From positions 677,751 through 741,750 of the forward strand of contig NZ_GL872413.1 in NCBI RefSeq assembly GCF_000192225.1: a stretch of DNA of 64,000 nucleotides, read 5' to 3'. The stretch comes from Capnocytophaga sp. oral taxon 338 str. F0234 (lineage in GTDB: Bacteria; Bacteroidota; Bacteroidia; Flavobacteriales; Flavobacteriaceae). This document shows, piece by piece, positions 37,665-60,379 of the stretch (position 1 is the first letter of the stretch; each line of letters opens with the position of its first letter). Under the pieces are notes generated by a model. That model saw only the letters and a list, made by a program, of their open reading frames with translations. It made no database searches and was not told where the DNA came from. Both the position numbers and the translations under genes were made by a program.

Positions 37665-39008
37665 TTAAAATTTTGCTGAAAATATTTCTGGATTGATGTT
37701 GAGGCTACACCAGAACCAATCTTGGTAGCTGCGAGCGTTGGGAGTATTTTTGAGCGCTTTCGCTCCATCATTAGCAAAGTAAGTAGAGTACCCTACTTGC
37801 AATCCAATGAAGGATTGTAGTTTTAGGTTGTACACAAGGTCTATTTCACTGCCGAGACTATTGTGTTTCTTATCAGTTTTAAACTTAGCAGCGGGCGCAA
37901 AAAAGTGATAGGTAGCACTGAGGTTACTCTTTTCTCCAGTGCGTACATTGGCAGTAAGATAAGGATTAAGTAAGCCTACATTAGGGGTGAATCCTACATA
38001 ATAATAGTCCATAAAGCCATAGAACTTGTGGTTAGTACCACTGAAAGGATTGAAGGCTTTATCCTTGCCGGAGGTATCATCAGAAGCATTTCCACTGAGA
38101 TAATCTACTCCAGCAGTGAGTCCAAAGGAAGGGGTAACCCTATAACCTACATTTGCAGCGAGTAAGAAAGCACTCTTTTTAGCACCACTAGCATTTTTAC
38201 CTGTTTGCATATAGGCGGAAGCACTATAGCTTAACGGGTTGCTTTTGCCAGTATAATATGCTCCAAACGTTTGCATATTTTGGTCGGCACTGTTATCTGT
38301 ACGATATCCTAAATTAGCAAACAAGAATGATAGCTGTTGTGCTTCACTAATACTGTAATGGGCATGGAGGGCTTCTAAGTGTTGGTAGTCTTGTCCAGCC
38401 CCTGGGGTAAAGTGTTGCCCACTGGGGGTATTTACGTTCAATAATGCTGTTGCATTGCCCGACTGGTTGTAAGCAAAGAAACTGCGAAGAGTCCATTGTT
38501 CAGAAGGCATCCAGTTGAGATTCACAGCATCATGACTACGACCGGCAGGGTGCCAATCAAGTGACCCGAAGATACGATCATCATCTAAGGCGATTACCTG
38601 CCTACCAATCTTAGCATTGAGTGTATTGGCAAGTGGGAAAGCCGCATACGCTTCAAAGACCGACATGCCTCCTGTTCTATCCACCGCTTGTATTTGAGGG
38701 GCTTGTCCCCAAACGTTTACGTTCTGCAGAGAAACGTATAGATGCAAACGATCACTGTGCTTGTAGTCAAAGTTCAGTCGCAATCGGTTATTAGTGAGAA
38801 TAGCAGGGGCTTCTCCCTCTTGTAAAGGGCGATAGGCACCATTGCGATACTCAAGACGCGGGCGTAATTGAGCGGAAAGAGTGAAAGCATTTTGTGGCTC
38901 TGTATCCAAACCTTCTGTGGTAGAAATCTCTTCCTGTGCTTTCACTAGATTGGGACACAGAATAAAACCAATGCCCAATGTTGTGATAGATAAAAAATTA
39001 ACTTTCAT
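37665..39008 (-). CDS. alginate-export-type outer-membrane porin
   Basis: 447 residues. A signal peptide (1-24, ending VKAQ) is followed by a barrel of the alginate_exp/porin type: FTLSAQLRPRLEYRNGAYRP, RLRLNFDYKHSDRLHLYVSL, NAKIGRQVIALDDDRIFGSL. It ends in a Phe-containing strand (FSAKF). It is divergent from nrfHA and shares a symmetric promoter region with it, so it may be the nitrite/nitrate entry channel. That is inference; true alginate export is unlikely here. Confidence 0.75.
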   Translation of the reverse strand: MKVNFLSITTLGIGFILCPNLVKAQEEISTTEGLDTEPQNAFTLSAQLRPRLEYRNGAYRPLQEGEAPAILTNNRLRLNFDYKHSDRLHLYVSLQNVNVWGQAPQIQAVDRTGGMSVFEAYAAFPLANTLNAKIGRQVIALDDDRIFGSLDWHPAGRSHDAVNLNWMPSEQWTLRSFFAYNQSGNATALLNVNTPSGQHFTPGAGQDYQHLEALHAHYSISEAQQLSFLFANLGYRTDNSADQNMQTFGAYYTGKSNPLSYSASAYMQTGKNASGAKKSAFLLAANVGYRVTPSFGLTAGVDYLSGNASDDTSGKDKAFNPFSGTNHKFYGFMDYYYVGFTPNVGLLNPYLTANVRTGEKSNLSATYHFFAPAAKFKTDKKHNSLGSEIDLVYNLKLQSFIGLQVGYSTYFANDGAKALKNTPNARSYQDWFWCSLNINPEIFSAKF

Positions 39009-39089
39009 AATATGTCATATTTATAATTTTTGAAATTAATATAGTATTTTTATTTAGAATGAAAATAAAATACTGTAAATGATGTTCTT

Positions 39090-39128
39090 GCGTTGCAAAA
39101 TTAAAAATTTTTTTTAATTTTGCAACGC
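39090..39128. promoter_or_regulatory. symmetric face-to-face promoter pair, nrfH/porin
   Basis: An 18-bp perfect inverted repeat, GCGTTGCAAAATTAAAAA (39090-39107) and its complement (39111-39128), has a 3-nt centre. Plus strand: TTG 39093-39095, 19 nt, TAATTTTG 39115-39122 (to nrfH). Minus strand: TTG 39123-39125, 19 nt, TAATTTTG 39096-39103 (to the porin). Both promoters use the same DNA. Confidence 0.7.
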
Positions 39129-39163
39129 AGATATATTAAAAAGTTTAACTATATATAGTATAT

Positions 39164-39769
39164 ATGACAGTATCCAATAAAGAAACTCCAGTTAATAAGA
39201 ATCGCTTTTTTCGGTTCCTTATTCCTGCGTTAGTAGGAATACTGATAGGACTTAGTGGGTATGTATTTTATATCTCTAAGGCTCATTCCTACCTGTCCGA
39301 CGATCCTAATGCGTGCGTAAACTGCCATATTATGAAACCTGAGTATGCTACATGGTCTCATTCCTCACACGGACGTAATACCGTGTGTAACGATTGTCAT
39401 GTACCTCATGATAATGTGTTTCGCAAGTACTATTTCAAAGCTAATGATGGGCTTCGCCATGCGACCATGTTTACTTTTCGAATGGAACCCCAAGTAATAA
39501 AAATGCATGCTCCAGGACAAAAGGTAGTACAAGAGAACTGTATCCGTTGCCACAGTACTTTAGTCAGTGAAGTACAAGCGGGTGAGGTAACTGCCCCTAT
39601 GGCACATGCCAATAATGGTAAATTGTGCTGGGAATGCCATCGTGAGGTGCCACACAGCCGTGTACGTGGACTTAATGCTACTCCTGACGCTCCTGTACCT
39701 ATTATTGATGACATGAGCGCTAATATCCCCGATTGGCTACAAGAAATAGCCACTAAAAGTAAAAAGTAA
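39164..39769 (+). CDS. nrfH: cytochrome c nitrite reductase small subunit NrfH
   Basis: 201 residues. One N-terminal membrane anchor (about 15-35, FLIPALVGILIGLSGYVFYI) is followed by four CxxCH haem sites: CVNCH, CNDCH, CIRCH and CWECH. NrfH oxidises menaquinol and passes electrons to NrfA on the outer face of the inner membrane. The gene lies 25 bp upstream of nrfA. Confidence 0.96.
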   Translation: MTVSNKETPVNKNRFFRFLIPALVGILIGLSGYVFYISKAHSYLSDDPNACVNCHIMKPEYATWSHSSHGRNTVCNDCHVPHDNVFRKYYFKANDGLRHATMFTFRMEPQVIKMHAPGQKVVQENCIRCHSTLVSEVQAGEVTAPMAHANNGKLCWECHREVPHSRVRGLNATPDAPVPIIDDMSANIPDWLQEIATKSKK

Positions 39770-39794: not shown

Positions 39795-41267
39795 ATGATG
39801 ATGAAAAAGAAACATTGGTTAATTGCAGGTATATTGGCAATAGTTACCTTCTTATTAGGACTACTAGCAAGTTCAATAATGAATAGATCAACGGAAGCTA
39901 AAATAATTGCTAAAGAAGGTAATAACCTTGCCGATCAAGAGTGTCGTAATGAACTGTATGCACCGTTCTATCCTCGCGAGTATGACTCTTGGGCAGCTAC
40001 TGCCGATACCACTTTTCATTCTAAGTATATGAGCAGTCAAGATGACGATATGCTTGAGCAACGTCCTGAAATGGTCATACTTTGGGCAGGTTATGCATTC
40101 TCTAAGGAATACAATGCTCCGCGCGGACACATGCATGCCATTGAGGATGTTACCAAAATCCTCCGTACGGGTGCCCCTACCGATTCTACACATTCTCCCC
40201 AGCCAGGTACTTGCTGGACTTGTAAAAGCCCTGATGTACCTCGCCTAATGAAGAAAGTAGGATTGGAAGCTTATTATAGTGCTCCTTGGGACAAGTGGGG
40301 TAGTGAGATCGTAAACCCTATTGGTTGTGCTACTTGTCACAATACCAAAACAATGAGTCTTGCTATTTCTCAGCCTGCTCTTGTTGAGGCTTTTGCTCGC
40401 CAAGGTCGCGATATTAATAAGGCTACTCACCAAGAAATGCGTTCACTTGTATGTGCTCAGTGCCACGTAGAGTATTATTTCAAAGGAGATAAAAAATATC
40501 TTACCTTCCCTTGGGATGAGGGAAAAGCAGTGGAGGATATGGAGAAATATTATGATGAATCCGGTTGGACAGATTATGTCCACAAAATAAGCCGTACTCC
40601 TATTATCAAGGCACAACACCCTGACTTTGAAATTTCACAATTTGGTATCCACGCACAACGTGGTGTATCCTGTGCTGACTGTCACATGCCTTACAAAACC
40701 GATGGCGCTGTGAAATTCTCTGATCACCAAATTAGCAGTCCCTTACGTAACGTAACAGCAAGTTGCCAAACTTGCCACCGTCAAAGTGAAAAAGAATTGG
40801 TTAAAAATGTTGAAGACCGTCAAAATGCTGTATTCTCTTTGCGCAACCGTTTAGAAAAGCAATTGGCTAAGGATCACTTTAAAGCCAAATTCTTATGGGA
40901 TAATGGTGCTACTGAAGAACAAATGAAACCTATTTTGGCTTTGTTACGCAAATCTCAATGGCGTTGGGACTATATCACCGCTTCCCATGGTGCTGCTTTT
41001 CATGCTCCAGTAGAAGCTATGCGTGTACTTAGTGACGGTATGACTTTTGCTATGCAAGCCGAAACTGATATGGATAACCTCACTAACAAACTGAATATTA
41101 AAGCAGCTTTCGTAATGCCTGATATCAGCACTAAAGCCAAAGCTCAAAAAGAAATAGGTTTGGATATGGAAAAAGAAAAAGCTGCTAAGAAACGCTTCTT
41201 GGAGACAATCGTCCCTAAATGGATAGAAGAAGCCAAAAAAGAAGGTCGTTTAGTAACTCAAAAGTAA
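39795..41267 (+). CDS. nrfA: ammonia-forming cytochrome c nitrite reductase NrfA
   Basis: 490 residues. After a signal/anchor (7-25) there are five haem sites: the diagnostic active-site CWTCK plus CATCH, CAQCH, CADCH and CQTCH. The catalytic Tyr/His region is seen in ISQFGIHAQRGVSCADCHMPY. It reduces nitrite to ammonium with six electrons in the periplasm. ATG is possible at 39795, 39798 or 39801. It is followed by repeats and a strong terminator-like hairpin before resB. Confidence 0.98.
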   Translation: MMMKKKHWLIAGILAIVTFLLGLLASSIMNRSTEAKIIAKEGNNLADQECRNELYAPFYPREYDSWAATADTTFHSKYMSSQDDDMLEQRPEMVILWAGYAFSKEYNAPRGHMHAIEDVTKILRTGAPTDSTHSPQPGTCWTCKSPDVPRLMKKVGLEAYYSAPWDKWGSEIVNPIGCATCHNTKTMSLAISQPALVEAFARQGRDINKATHQEMRSLVCAQCHVEYYFKGDKKYLTFPWDEGKAVEDMEKYYDESGWTDYVHKISRTPIIKAQHPDFEISQFGIHAQRGVSCADCHMPYKTDGAVKFSDHQISSPLRNVTASCQTCHRQSEKELVKNVEDRQNAVFSLRNRLEKQLAKDHFKAKFLWDNGATEEQMKPILALLRKSQWRWDYITASHGAAFHAPVEAMRVLSDGMTFAMQAETDMDNLTNKLNIKAAFVMPDISTKAKAQKEIGLDMEKEKAAKKRFLETIVPKWIEEAKKEGRLVTQK

Positions 41268-41411: not shown

Positions 41412-41446
41412 AAACTTTGCCAAAGTCTCAAACTTTGGCAAAGTTT
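41412..41446. terminator. long perfect hairpin after nrfA
   Basis: A 15-bp perfect stem AAACTTTGCCAAAGT / ACTTTGGCAAAGTTT with loop CTCAA. The T-run is short, so it may be an intra-operon hairpin rather than a full terminator before resB-ccsA. Confidence 0.6.
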
Positions 41447-42818: not shown

Positions 42819-43613
42819 ATGTGGTCTTATTTTGATATAGTAACCTATTTATCAGTAGCCTTGTGGCTATTAGGAGGGGTGCTTATTTATAGCAAAAACA
42901 GAGCCTTCAGAAAGATAGGGGTTATCGGTCATTTGGTGGCTACCTTAGGGGTAGGGGTTTTTATTGTGGCTCTTTGGCAAAGCTTAGAGCGTCCACCCTT
43001 ACGTACCCTTGCTGAAACACGTATTTGGTATGCCTTCTTTATGGGGCTTATAGGCTATGCTATCTACTTGCTCTATCGCCAAAAGTGGATGCTTAGTTAC
43101 TCGGCTGTAATGGGGATTGTGTTCGTAATGCTTACCTTCACTCACCCCGACACGATGAACAAAGCCCTGATGCCTGCCTTGCAGAGTGTATGGTTTATCC
43201 CACATGTTATCGTATATATCTTTGCTTATGCGATGCTGGGTATGGCTTCACTCACCGCTTTCTACGGCATCTATCGCTATAGAAAAGGACGAGAGGTACA
43301 TTCAGTATTCTTAATAACCGACCAGCTCATTAAGGTCGGCTACGTATTTCTCACCTTTGGCTTGCTCTTTGGAGCATTATGGGCTAAGGAGGCTTGGGGG
43401 CACTATTGGACGTGGGATCCTAAGGAAACATGGGCTTTTATCACATGGCTTGGCTATTTAGTGTATCTTCATCATAAGTACAATCACAAAGAAAAGAAAC
43501 CTTTTCAGAGCTTTGTAATTGTAGGAGTTGCTTTTCTTCTTCTGCTAATATGTTGGTTTGGTGTGAACTACCTACCTACAGCACAGATGAGTGTACATAC
43601 ATATTCAGGATAA
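42819..43613 (+). CDS. ccsA: cytochrome c biogenesis protein CcsA (system II)
   Basis: 264 residues with about eight membrane helices. The haem-handling WWD motif is WGHYWTWDPKETWAFITWL, with conserved flanking histidines (VWFIPHVIVYIFAY; YLHHK). With ResB it exports haem and ligates it to CxxCH motifs, here those of NrfH, NrfA and the nos cytochrome. It is the last gene of the nrf unit and overlaps menC tail to tail by 9 bp. Confidence 0.93.
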   Translation: MWSYFDIVTYLSVALWLLGGVLIYSKNRAFRKIGVIGHLVATLGVGVFIVALWQSLERPPLRTLAETRIWYAFFMGLIGYAIYLLYRQKWMLSYSAVMGIVFVMLTFTHPDTMNKALMPALQSVWFIPHVIVYIFAYAMLGMASLTAFYGIYRYRKGREVHSVFLITDQLIKVGYVFLTFGLLFGALWAKEAWGHYWTWDPKETWAFITWLGYLVYLHHKYNHKEKKPFQSFVIVGVAFLLLLICWFGVNYLPTAQMSVHTYSG

Positions 43614-47084: not shown

Positions 47085-47951
47085 TTATTTTTGGTTTAGT
47101 TCCTCAAAAAATGCCTTCAGCCTATGTTTTCCTACTTTCATTGGCGCTACCGAATCCATTGCCATTACGGTGAAAACGAATTCTATAGTGCCGTAAGCAC
47201 TTTTAGGCAAGAGATATTTGCCTATTTTCAAAACGGACTTCCGTACCCAATCAGGCAAAAAACTGACCTTCACAGGCTTATGTAACACCTCGAAAGCCAA
47301 AGCAGCGATTTCATACTGGGTGAACACCTCAGCCCCTCCTACATTCACTTCCTTTTCGGAGCTCTCTAATTGCGCTACACACACCTGGGCTAAATCCTCA
47401 CCGTGAATAGGATTCATGACGTATTGTCCTTTGCTAAACAGACGTATTTTGTCCTCTTTTGCCATCTTGAAAAAGGTGGCTATATCGCTATAGAAAGCCG
47501 AGGGTCGCACAATACAGTAGTCCATCCCACTGGTTTTAAGAGCCTCTACAAAACGCTCTTTGGCAGCCCCAATGGCAATAGGACGTAGTGCTTCGCCGTT
47601 TAATACGGAAATATATACGAACTTACGTACCCCCGAGCGCAGTGCTTCGTCAAGTAAGTTTTTGTTAGCTGCATAATCTACTTGCTCGTAGGTGAGTTTG
47701 TCTTTCTGCCGAGTAATTCCGACAGCGGAAATCACTTGGGTAACCCCCTTGCACACACCGAGTAAAGTATTGGGTTTTGTTACCTCAGCCTCGACTACTT
47801 CTAATAATGGGTGGGTAAGTAAGGCGGGCGCTATTTTTGACTTATTGCGCACTACAATGCGGGTAGGATATTCTTTTTTTAAGAGTTCAGTTAATATAAA
47901 CTGACCTAAATAACCGGTCGCTCCGGCTAATAATATTTTTTCTGTTTTCAT
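47085..47951 (-). CDS. NAD(P)-binding SDR, second copy of tandem unit
   Basis: 288 residues, atypical SDR (NmrA/DVR-like). The dinucleotide loop is GATGYLGQ, with VRNKSK for cofactor choice, the YISVLNGEAL strand and VRPSAFYSD. It is nearly colinear with residues 1-287 of the next upstream gene: their starts are 1,333 bp apart. Substrate unknown. It is the last gene of a leftward five-gene run. Confidence 0.85.
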   Translation of the reverse strand: MKTEKILLAGATGYLGQFILTELLKKEYPTRIVVRNKSKIAPALLTHPLLEVVEAEVTKPNTLLGVCKGVTQVISAVGITRQKDKLTYEQVDYAANKNLLDEALRSGVRKFVYISVLNGEALRPIAIGAAKERFVEALKTSGMDYCIVRPSAFYSDIATFFKMAKEDKIRLFSKGQYVMNPIHGEDLAQVCVAQLESSEKEVNVGGAEVFTQYEIAALAFEVLHKPVKVSFLPDWVRKSVLKIGKYLLPKSAYGTIEFVFTVMAMDSVAPMKVGKHRLKAFFEELNQK

Positions 47952-47955
47952 TGGG

Positions 47956-49284
47956 TTAATCTTCTGCTAAGTCTAAAAAGTCTTCGAAATATTCCTCAAA
48001 GGAATCAAACATGGGCGTAGGTTTGTCGATTTCAAAGGCCCCCTTATCATTGCAATAAACCTCTGCTTCGAAGACCTTCGCATCTTTTAGGCGTACCCTA
48101 TTAGAAACTTTATATAAGGTTAGGAACTCGTCCACCTCGTAATGTAGTACGATAAAATCCTCTGAGAGATGTAAGTCCTCTCTTAGTTGTTTAGTTAGTT
48201 CCACAATAGGATAAGATATACTGTCTTTTTCTTTGTAAATACCATTGATATACACATCGCCATAGTTGCAAGAACCACATTCTGAAAGAAAATTTACATA
48301 TACTTCAGGAAGCAATATGCCCAATTCCTCTTCTATATGCTTAATTTCTTCAGCATTAGCCCCTAGAGAATACTCAAATTCTCCACTCTGTTTTAATCGT
48401 TTTAGATAATATCTATCAGCTGATGAATTTATAGATTCAAAAAACGCCTTTAACCGATGCTTACCTACTTGCATAGGAGCTACAGCATCCATTGCCATAA
48501 TGGTAAGGAAAAATTCTATAGCACCATAGATACTTTTAGGGAGGAGGTATTTGCCCATTTTTAGGATCAAACGCCGTACCCAGTCAGGTAAATAACTTAT
48601 ATTAGCTGGCTTATGTAGTACCTCAAAAGCCAAACGAGCCATCTCTGTTTGTGTAAAAATCTCAGCTCCTCCTACATTGACTTCCCGTTCATAACCCTCC
48701 AATTGGGCGACACAGACCTCGGCTAAGTCTTCCCCATGAATGGGATTCATAGCATATTGTCCTTTGCCAAATAGGCATATTTTGTCCTTCTTCGCCATTT
48801 TCAAAAAGACAGTCATATCGCTATAAAAACCACTGGGGCGTATGATACAGTAGTCTAATCCACTGGCCTTAAGCGTATCTACAAAGCGCTCTTTAGCCGC
48901 TCCAATGGCTATATGTCGCATGGCTTCTCCCTTGAATACGGATACATATATGAACTTACGTACGCCTTCGAGCAAGGCTTCATCGAGTAGGTTCTTGTTG
49001 GCTTGGAAGTCTACTTGCTCATAGGTGAGTCCATCTTTTTGGCGGGTAATCCCTACAGAAGAAATCACCTTATGCACCCCTTTACATACCCCTTGTAAGG
49101 TGTCAGGTTGTGTTACCTCTGCTTCCACTACCTCCAATAGTGGGTGTGTGAGTAGGGCAGGGGAGAGCTTCGATTTGTTGCGTACCACAATGCGGGTCGG
49201 GTATTCTTCTCTTAAGAGTGCAGCCAGTATATACTGACCTAAATAGCCGGTTGCTCCTGCTAATAATATTTTTTCTGTTTTCAT
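47956..49284 (-). CDS. SDR-SUKH fusion protein
   Basis: 442 residues. Residues 1-287 are an atypical SDR (GATGYLGQ, VRPSGFYSD) like the downstream paralogue. From about residue 292 (DRYYLKRLKQSGEFEYSLGA) to the end it is a SMI1/KNR4 (SUKH) domain nearly identical to the separate gene at 49289-49753. The SUKH start codon ATG is altered and the SDR stop lost, so the two genes read as one. SUKH proteins are often immunity proteins against polymorphic toxins. The fusion arose by tandem duplication. Confidence 0.85.
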   Translation of the reverse strand: MKTEKILLAGATGYLGQYILAALLREEYPTRIVVRNKSKLSPALLTHPLLEVVEAEVTQPDTLQGVCKGVHKVISSVGITRQKDGLTYEQVDFQANKNLLDEALLEGVRKFIYVSVFKGEAMRHIAIGAAKERFVDTLKASGLDYCIIRPSGFYSDMTVFLKMAKKDKICLFGKGQYAMNPIHGEDLAEVCVAQLEGYEREVNVGGAEIFTQTEMARLAFEVLHKPANISYLPDWVRRLILKMGKYLLPKSIYGAIEFFLTIMAMDAVAPMQVGKHRLKAFFESINSSADRYYLKRLKQSGEFEYSLGANAEEIKHIEEELGILLPEVYVNFLSECGSCNYGDVYINGIYKEKDSISYPIVELTKQLREDLHLSEDFIVLHYEVDEFLTLYKVSNRVRLKDAKVFEAEVYCNDKGAFEIDKPTPMFDSFEEYFEDFLDLAED

Positions 49285-60344: not shown

Positions 60345-60379
60345 TTTTGTCGCAAAAAAACACTTTTTTTGCGACAAAA
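60345..60379 (+). terminator. hairpin after the 59252 gene
   Basis: TTTTGTCGCAAAAAAA and its exact complement (16-bp arms) flank CAC. The T7 run is inside the right arm. It lies 28 nt after the stop and could terminate on either strand. Confidence 0.65.

Follow-up and report, generated by a model that had tools for sequence, protein, structure and literature searches.

Two superimposed, divergent predicted promoters in a palindrome between nrfH and a porin gene of Capnocytophaga

When considered together with its neighbouring genes, the perfect palindrome that lies between nrfH (plus strand) and a porin gene of the Alginate_exp family (minus strand) in the 64-kb stretch of Capnocytophaga DNA analysed here (the window) is probably made up of two Bacteroidota-type housekeeping-σ promoters occupying the same ~33 bp, one on each strand. 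The porin gene (PF13372, 447 aa) occupies positions 37665-39008 of the minus strand, and its outer-membrane product gave no match to PDB sequences up to an E value of 0.1. On the plus strand, nrfH, which encodes the small subunit of cytochrome c nitrite reductase (TIGR03153), extends from 39164 to 39769, with nrfA (39795-41267) as the next gene; further along the same strand are a gene for a ResB-like protein (PF05140, 41829-42752), probably acting in cytochrome c biogenesis, and one for a cytochrome c assembly protein (42819-43613; PF01578, with TIGR03144 below its cut-off). Among the named genomes in the matches listed, the closest nrfH is that of C. leadbetteri (86% identity).

Housekeeping promoters of Bacteroidota carry, as known from work on Bacteroides, a TTG at -33, located ~19-20 nt upstream of the -7 element, and the window has such a TTG on both strands. 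The predicted nrfH promoter consists of TTG at 39093-39095 and, 19 nt further, the -7 box TAATTTTG at 39115-39122. Read on the minus strand, the predicted porin promoter has TTG at 39125-39123 (CAA on the plus strand), again 19 nt, and TAATTTTG at 39103-39096 (CAAAATTA on the plus strand); a separate scan upstream of the porin gene recovered this same reverse promoter, also with a spacer of 19. Both -7 boxes conform to TAnnTTTG, which in Flavobacterium psychrophilum spans -12 to -5 according to the accessible part of the source (PMC9723704), thus placing the predicted starts at ~39127 (plus) and ~39091 (minus), 36 bp apart. The -33 element of either promoter is immediately adjacent to the -7 element of the other, because TAnnTTTGCAA reads TTGCAAAnnTA on the other strand. 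An earlier note on this DNA had proposed a -33/-7 promoter with 19-nt spacing on each strand, and both are indeed present in the form TTG-N19-TAnnTTTG. Its description of the two as face-to-face has to be corrected, since the predicted transcripts run apart and the pair is therefore superimposed and divergent rather than facing. In relatives, the forward arrangement TTG-N19-21-TAnnTTTG is found at 18 of 20 nrfH genes, and the reverse -33 reads CAA on the plus strand in 7/10 species with a divergent porin and CGA in the other three. A scan for σ70 promoters returned no match at the palindrome, as expected from a consensus that differs from the Bacteroidota one.

The perfect inverted repeat covers 39089-39129, with arms of 19 bp each (39089-39107 and 39111-39129) around a 3-nt centre; the 18-bp palindrome noted previously at 39090-39128 is thus a real inverted repeat, the extent of which had been given too short. 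With loops of at most 5 nt considered, no other perfect inverted repeat in the window is as long, and its length exceeds chance expectation: arms reached at most 13 bp in 25 first-order Markov simulations of 64 kb, and none of 5000 simulations with the composition of the 155-nt intergenic region reached 19-bp arms (longest, 15 bp). No second copy of the arms occurs in the own genome (2.55 Mb, 29 contigs) with up to three mismatches allowed, and a mobile element or repeat family is ruled out by this single-copy status. The own genome also holds no second palindrome of the strict promoter pattern (TTGCAAAnnTA-N4-20-TAnnTTTGCAA), a search too strict to detect a looser operator. Long perfect inverted repeats also occur in the window at 60345-60379 (arms of 16 bp) and, downstream of nrfA, at 41412-41446 (arms of 15 bp); both are probably hairpins.

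Gene order in Capnocytophaga provides a natural experiment, since nrfH and the porin or a porin homologue are both found in all 20 genomes searched (the homologues in G005, G009 and G011 are 34-37% identical) in several arrangements. The porin gene is directly divergent from nrfH in 10 of them. In G002, G018 (L110) and G015 (G015:C148) it shares the strand of nrfH, lying upstream in the first and ~4 kb downstream in the other two; in the remaining seven it is away from the nrfH locus. The reverse -7 element is intact (6/6 positions) in all 10 species with a divergent porin versus none of the 8 scored species without one. With the -33 included, the reverse promoter totals 8-9/9 in the divergent species, against 1-5/6 for the -7 and 2-8/9 overall in the others, with the reservation that the non-divergent G001 (-7 of 5/6 plus -33 of 3/3, 8/9 in total) equals the lowest divergent species. 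Scoring covered 18 of the 20 genomes, G005 and G011, both without a divergent porin, being left out because no forward TTG-N17-21-TAnnTTTG was found there, so that the occurrence of a forward promoter among scored species (18/20 overall) partly reflects how they were chosen. The association of reverse promoter and gene order has a Mann-Whitney p of 0.0002 with kinship ignored; on the NrfH+NrfA tree, gene order changes only about four times, which leaves low power, and the independent pairs on well-supported branches agree in three of three cases (sign test, p 0.25). A strict reverse promoter precedes 7/10 divergent porins, including that of the window, the exceptions (L114, L116 and L119) failing because their -33 reads TCG. 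Among the relocated porins, L111, L112 and L120 (3/10) are preceded by a separate strict TTG-N19/20-TAnnTTTG, and the other seven have none in the 330 nt read. Taken together, this contrast supports the proposal of two superimposed promoters over that of a regulator operator. The mirror promoter is apparently kept only as long as both genes need it, and species with a relocated porin offer a ready control for the coupling of two genes by one polymerase site.

A comparison position by position leads in the same direction. The earlier note had asked whether relatives with the same gene order share the palindrome, and the mirror TTGCAAAnnTA / TAnnTTTGC(A or G)A is present in 10/10 divergent species; perfect 19-bp arms are found in the window only. 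Eight of the nine consensus positions are symmetric in all 10 species, and the ninth, the second T of TTG, in seven. Outside the consensus, the first free position (n) is symmetric in 10/10, beyond what a promoter needs, the second in 3/10, and the five outer spacer pairs examined in 1-6/10; two A/T-rich flanking positions are symmetric in 9/10 and 8/10 divergent species, as well as in 7/7 non-divergent ones. This pattern appears to fit selection on two promoters better than selection on the dyad as such. Only in the window does the symmetry also include the spacer and the next 4 bp on the outside, an extension that promoters do not require. There, the right flank (CAACG) resembles that of relatives and the left one (TGCG) does not, which suggests that the left arm may have been rewritten from the right arm by template switching.

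The strict pattern is not confined to this locus. Within Capnocytophaga it occurs at 12 sites in 9/20 genomes, against none for the backward control; nine of the 12 sites have a centre of 11 or 12 nt, and seven of these nine are the nrf-porin site, which is the sole strict site in 4/7 genomes that carry it, the other three having one extra site each (two with a 4-nt centre). Across 299 Flavobacteriaceae genomes, 31 contain the pattern versus 8 for the backward control, and outside Capnocytophaga 28 genomes have one site each. All 13 of the latter sites with a 12-nt centre (L079, L080, L082, L083, L085-L089, L095, L097, L098 and L100, around positions 1501-1534) adjoin an HxlR-type gene from which a reductase gene diverges. 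This assignment comes from Pfam for three of the HxlR proteins and three of their partners, one of them partial (in L082, the reductase frame is incomplete), and from sequence resemblance for the rest. Ten of the 13 have TATAGT in their spacer. The interval between HxlR regulator and reductase genes thus seems to be a recurrent place of superimposed symmetric promoters in Flavobacteriaceae. The other 15 sites (14 examined, as G301 has no locus) are of mixed context, lying between convergent genes, inside reading frames or between divergent genes, and none of the three sites outside Capnocytophaga with the 11-nt centre of the window's own site is divergent. L084 and L099 (around 1501-1533), both between convergent genes, are probably hairpin terminators, and L091 lies inside a frame. 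It is therefore important to stress that the pattern alone is no proof of promoters.

Three other readings of the palindrome deserve consideration. The earlier note had also suggested the site of a dimeric regulator, in which case the palindrome would be an operator for nrfHA, perhaps also for the porin, and its likeness to promoters secondary. A long perfect dyad is the kind of sequence that regulators often bind, the first free position is symmetric throughout the divergent species, and the HxlR-adjacent sites, most of them with their TATAGT spacer, show superimposed promoters next to regulator genes. Nevertheless, the eight scored species in which the porin has moved keep the nrfH promoter and lose the dyad (reverse -7 below 6/6 in every one, G001 coming closest), the spacer is mostly asymmetric, as is the unconstrained second free position (7/10), and an operator might be expected at further sites, yet the own genome contains a single strict match and the nrf site stands alone in most of the genus genomes that have it. 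The operator reading consequently appears quite improbable to us, and the suggestion of a dimeric-regulator site is not borne out. It is unlikely, too, that only the nrfH promoter is real, with the reverse half a by-product of template switching and the porin transcribed from a start elsewhere. Symmetry that takes in the spacer and the outer 4 bp, by which the window differs from the nine other divergent species, is just what copying of one arm would give, but the reverse -7 is intact in all 10, including a separate clade with an asymmetric spacer, and in the window and six other divergent loci the 330 nt ahead of the porin start contain no other strict promoter (the remaining three divergent loci have no strict porin promoter at all within this distance).

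Least probable of all, and in our view hardly to be expected, is a transcribed hairpin acting as a bidirectional terminator, attenuator or small RNA. The repeats at 60345-60379 and 41412-41446 do look like hairpins, and two sites of the same pattern (L084 and L099) lie between convergent genes; the genes at the palindrome, however, diverge, and both predicted starts are located within the outer arms, with the result that neither transcript would carry the whole hairpin. Instead of the 3' stem and T run of an intrinsic terminator, the site has divergent gene starts and no terminator-like call, and its best Rfam match, at 24.8 bits, stays far below the gathering score of 90. An RNA family was accordingly rejected, the only hits being sub-threshold microRNA look-alikes.

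If the palindrome does hold two superimposed promoters, RNA polymerase would bind the ~33-bp site in either orientation and never in both together, since simultaneous occupancy looks sterically impossible. The nrfHA genes and the porin gene would then compete for one polymerase-binding site, which would couple their basal initiation. As polymerase clears promoters quickly, a balanced competition is likelier than mutually exclusive expression, and a coupled basal output is the likelier effect to expect of the shared site. Geometry, uniqueness, conservation with gene order and the helical phasing of a conserved box nearby are observed properties of the locus; that both predicted promoters are used and that binding is exclusive, we infer. 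Regulatory input would be separate, with a respiratory activator at this box (39051-39072) recruiting polymerase in the nrfH orientation; once bound, it would favour nrfH and could hinder the porin. A doubtful but conceivable extension is a switch of direction, in which polymerase, with no activator present, binds in both orientations and gives basal porin and nrfHA transcription, and an activator at the box imposes the nrfH orientation, the porin being blocked or out-competed. If true, one protein would invert the output of one 33-bp promoter.

The conserved box, TATTTAGAATGAAAATAAAATA on the plus strand, reads TATTTAGAATnAnnATAAAATA in the window and is a candidate activator site for nrfHA, with its centre at about -65 from the predicted nrfH start; it also lies ~30 bp inside the predicted porin leader (about +30). 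It is matched at 20/20 nrfH promoters in 14-19 of 19 positions, these being the best matches per 110-nt stretch, for which 14/19 alone is about what chance gives in other upstream regions. The distance from the start of the box to the nrfH -7 box is 64-67 nt in 14 cases and 76-77 nt in six, with none in between (for G005, the -7 consensus was relaxed). The two distances differ by a full helical turn, the spacing to be expected if an activator has to face polymerase. Since the box is kept at nrfH with or without the porin, it is assigned to nrfHA and is likely the site of an nrf regulator.

Loci with a similar 22-bp, TATTTAGAATnnnnATAAATTA-like box include, besides 39051-39072 of the window, L171, L186, L235-L241, L245 and L249-L251. 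A multiheme cytochrome c gene, presumably that of alternative complex III, as its neighbour suggests, has such a box 65-66 nt before its -7 element at 14 of 21 loci (13 genomes); the other seven, where only the C-terminal part matched the query, yielded none. The box lies 65-67 nt before the -7 of cydA at 7/10 loci, the three more distant cydA homologues (L242-L244) having none at the expected distance, and 75-76 nt before the -7 of nqrA at 4/20, which rules out a box ahead of all nqrA genes. These targets were themselves found by pattern search, so that G002, G010 and G018 are not independent tests of them. In the own genome, the box stands ahead of nrfH, of the multiheme cytochrome gene and, more weakly, of nqrA, and no cydA match was found. 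The box may therefore be regarded as the mark of a candidate respiratory regulon in Capnocytophaga, and we know of no earlier description of such a regulon in this genus. A wide regulon is not apparent from a genus-wide search with two mismatches (57 matches versus 26 for the backward control). Among 20 further matches, six lie ahead of the multiheme cytochrome gene and 14 have no consistent target; another pattern search yielded mostly background among the matches listed. As for the regulator, HcpR (PMC13370916) and RprY (PMC6032018) were considered, and the accessible parts of these two sources contain no motif letters for comparison.

Warman et al. reportedly described in 2021 bidirectional bacterial promoters that arise from DNA-sequence symmetry. 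As set out in the accessible part of Middlemiss et al. 2023 (PMC10268837), the -10 elements of such promoters overlap, their starts are 7-25 bp apart (mostly 18), and those on chromosomes are mostly located between divergent genes. The nrf-porin site resembles them in having one polymerase-binding region, two directions and near-symmetric elements. It differs from the type outlined in that text (PMC10268837) in that the whole promoter is mirrored and each -7 meets the opposite -33: its -7 boxes (39096-39103 and 39115-39122) are separate, and its predicted starts are farther apart (36 bp) than that range. Overlapping divergent promoters between opposite units are likewise known from the conjugation genes of the B. 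subtilis plasmid pLS20 (PMC4207663), which represent, to go by the title, a Gram-positive plasmid switch with DNA looping. Compared with ordinary Bacteroidota promoters, with which it shares the TAnnTTTG -7 (PMC9723704, accessible part) on both strands and the TTG 19 nt upstream, the nrf-porin site is distinguished by a second complete copy that runs in the opposite direction over the same DNA. Close counterparts are the Flavobacteriaceae pairs of HxlR and nitroreductase or quinone oxidoreductase genes, with superimposed TTGCAAAnnTA-N12-TAnnTTTGCAA and divergent starts; there, the site adjoins a regulator gene and mostly has TATAGT in its spacer, and the nrf-porin site lacks both. No superimposed promoter in Bacteroidota was recognised in the literature among the matches listed. 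The palindrome would be a mirror image of a full promoter in Bacteroidota, with -33 and -7 interlocked across the strands, the known kind elsewhere being that with overlapping -10 elements.

The presence of the porin gene beside nrfH is itself informative. The porin is at the nrfH locus in 13/17 closer Capnocytophaga, and in at least 6 of 25 loci outside the genus (L019-L022, L037 and L039) a homologue in the same orientation immediately precedes nrfH; this count may be too low, since the flanks of seven of these loci extend over ~1.5 kb only. In Bacteroides thetaiotaomicron, the alginate-export protein BT1414 and nrfAH-ccs, five genes in all, fall 30- to 36-fold in low iron, and the BT1414-BT1418 operon is predicted by the authors to answer to the Crp-like regulator BT1413, as stated in the accessible part of PMC10434189. 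An alginate-export family protein thus belongs to the nrfAH-ccs locus there as well, with the difference that BT1414-BT1418 form one operon (PMC10434189, same part) and the porin and nrf genes of the window diverge. In G018, the porin gene is located directly 3' of the cytochrome c assembly gene, a gene set that resembles BT1414-BT1418 as presented in that text (PMC10434189). Gene order and the co-regulation published for B. thetaiotaomicron (PMC10434189, accessible part) support the earlier suggestion of a link between porin and nitrite respiration. This link is well supported by association, short of functional proof, and the recurrence of the porin speaks for an outer-membrane component of nitrite ammonification.

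Elsewhere in the window, at 47085-49284, two adjacent minus-strand genes have near-identical beginnings (MKTEKILLAGATGYLGQ..., compared by eye over the first 60 residues), and this pair is perhaps a tandem duplication.
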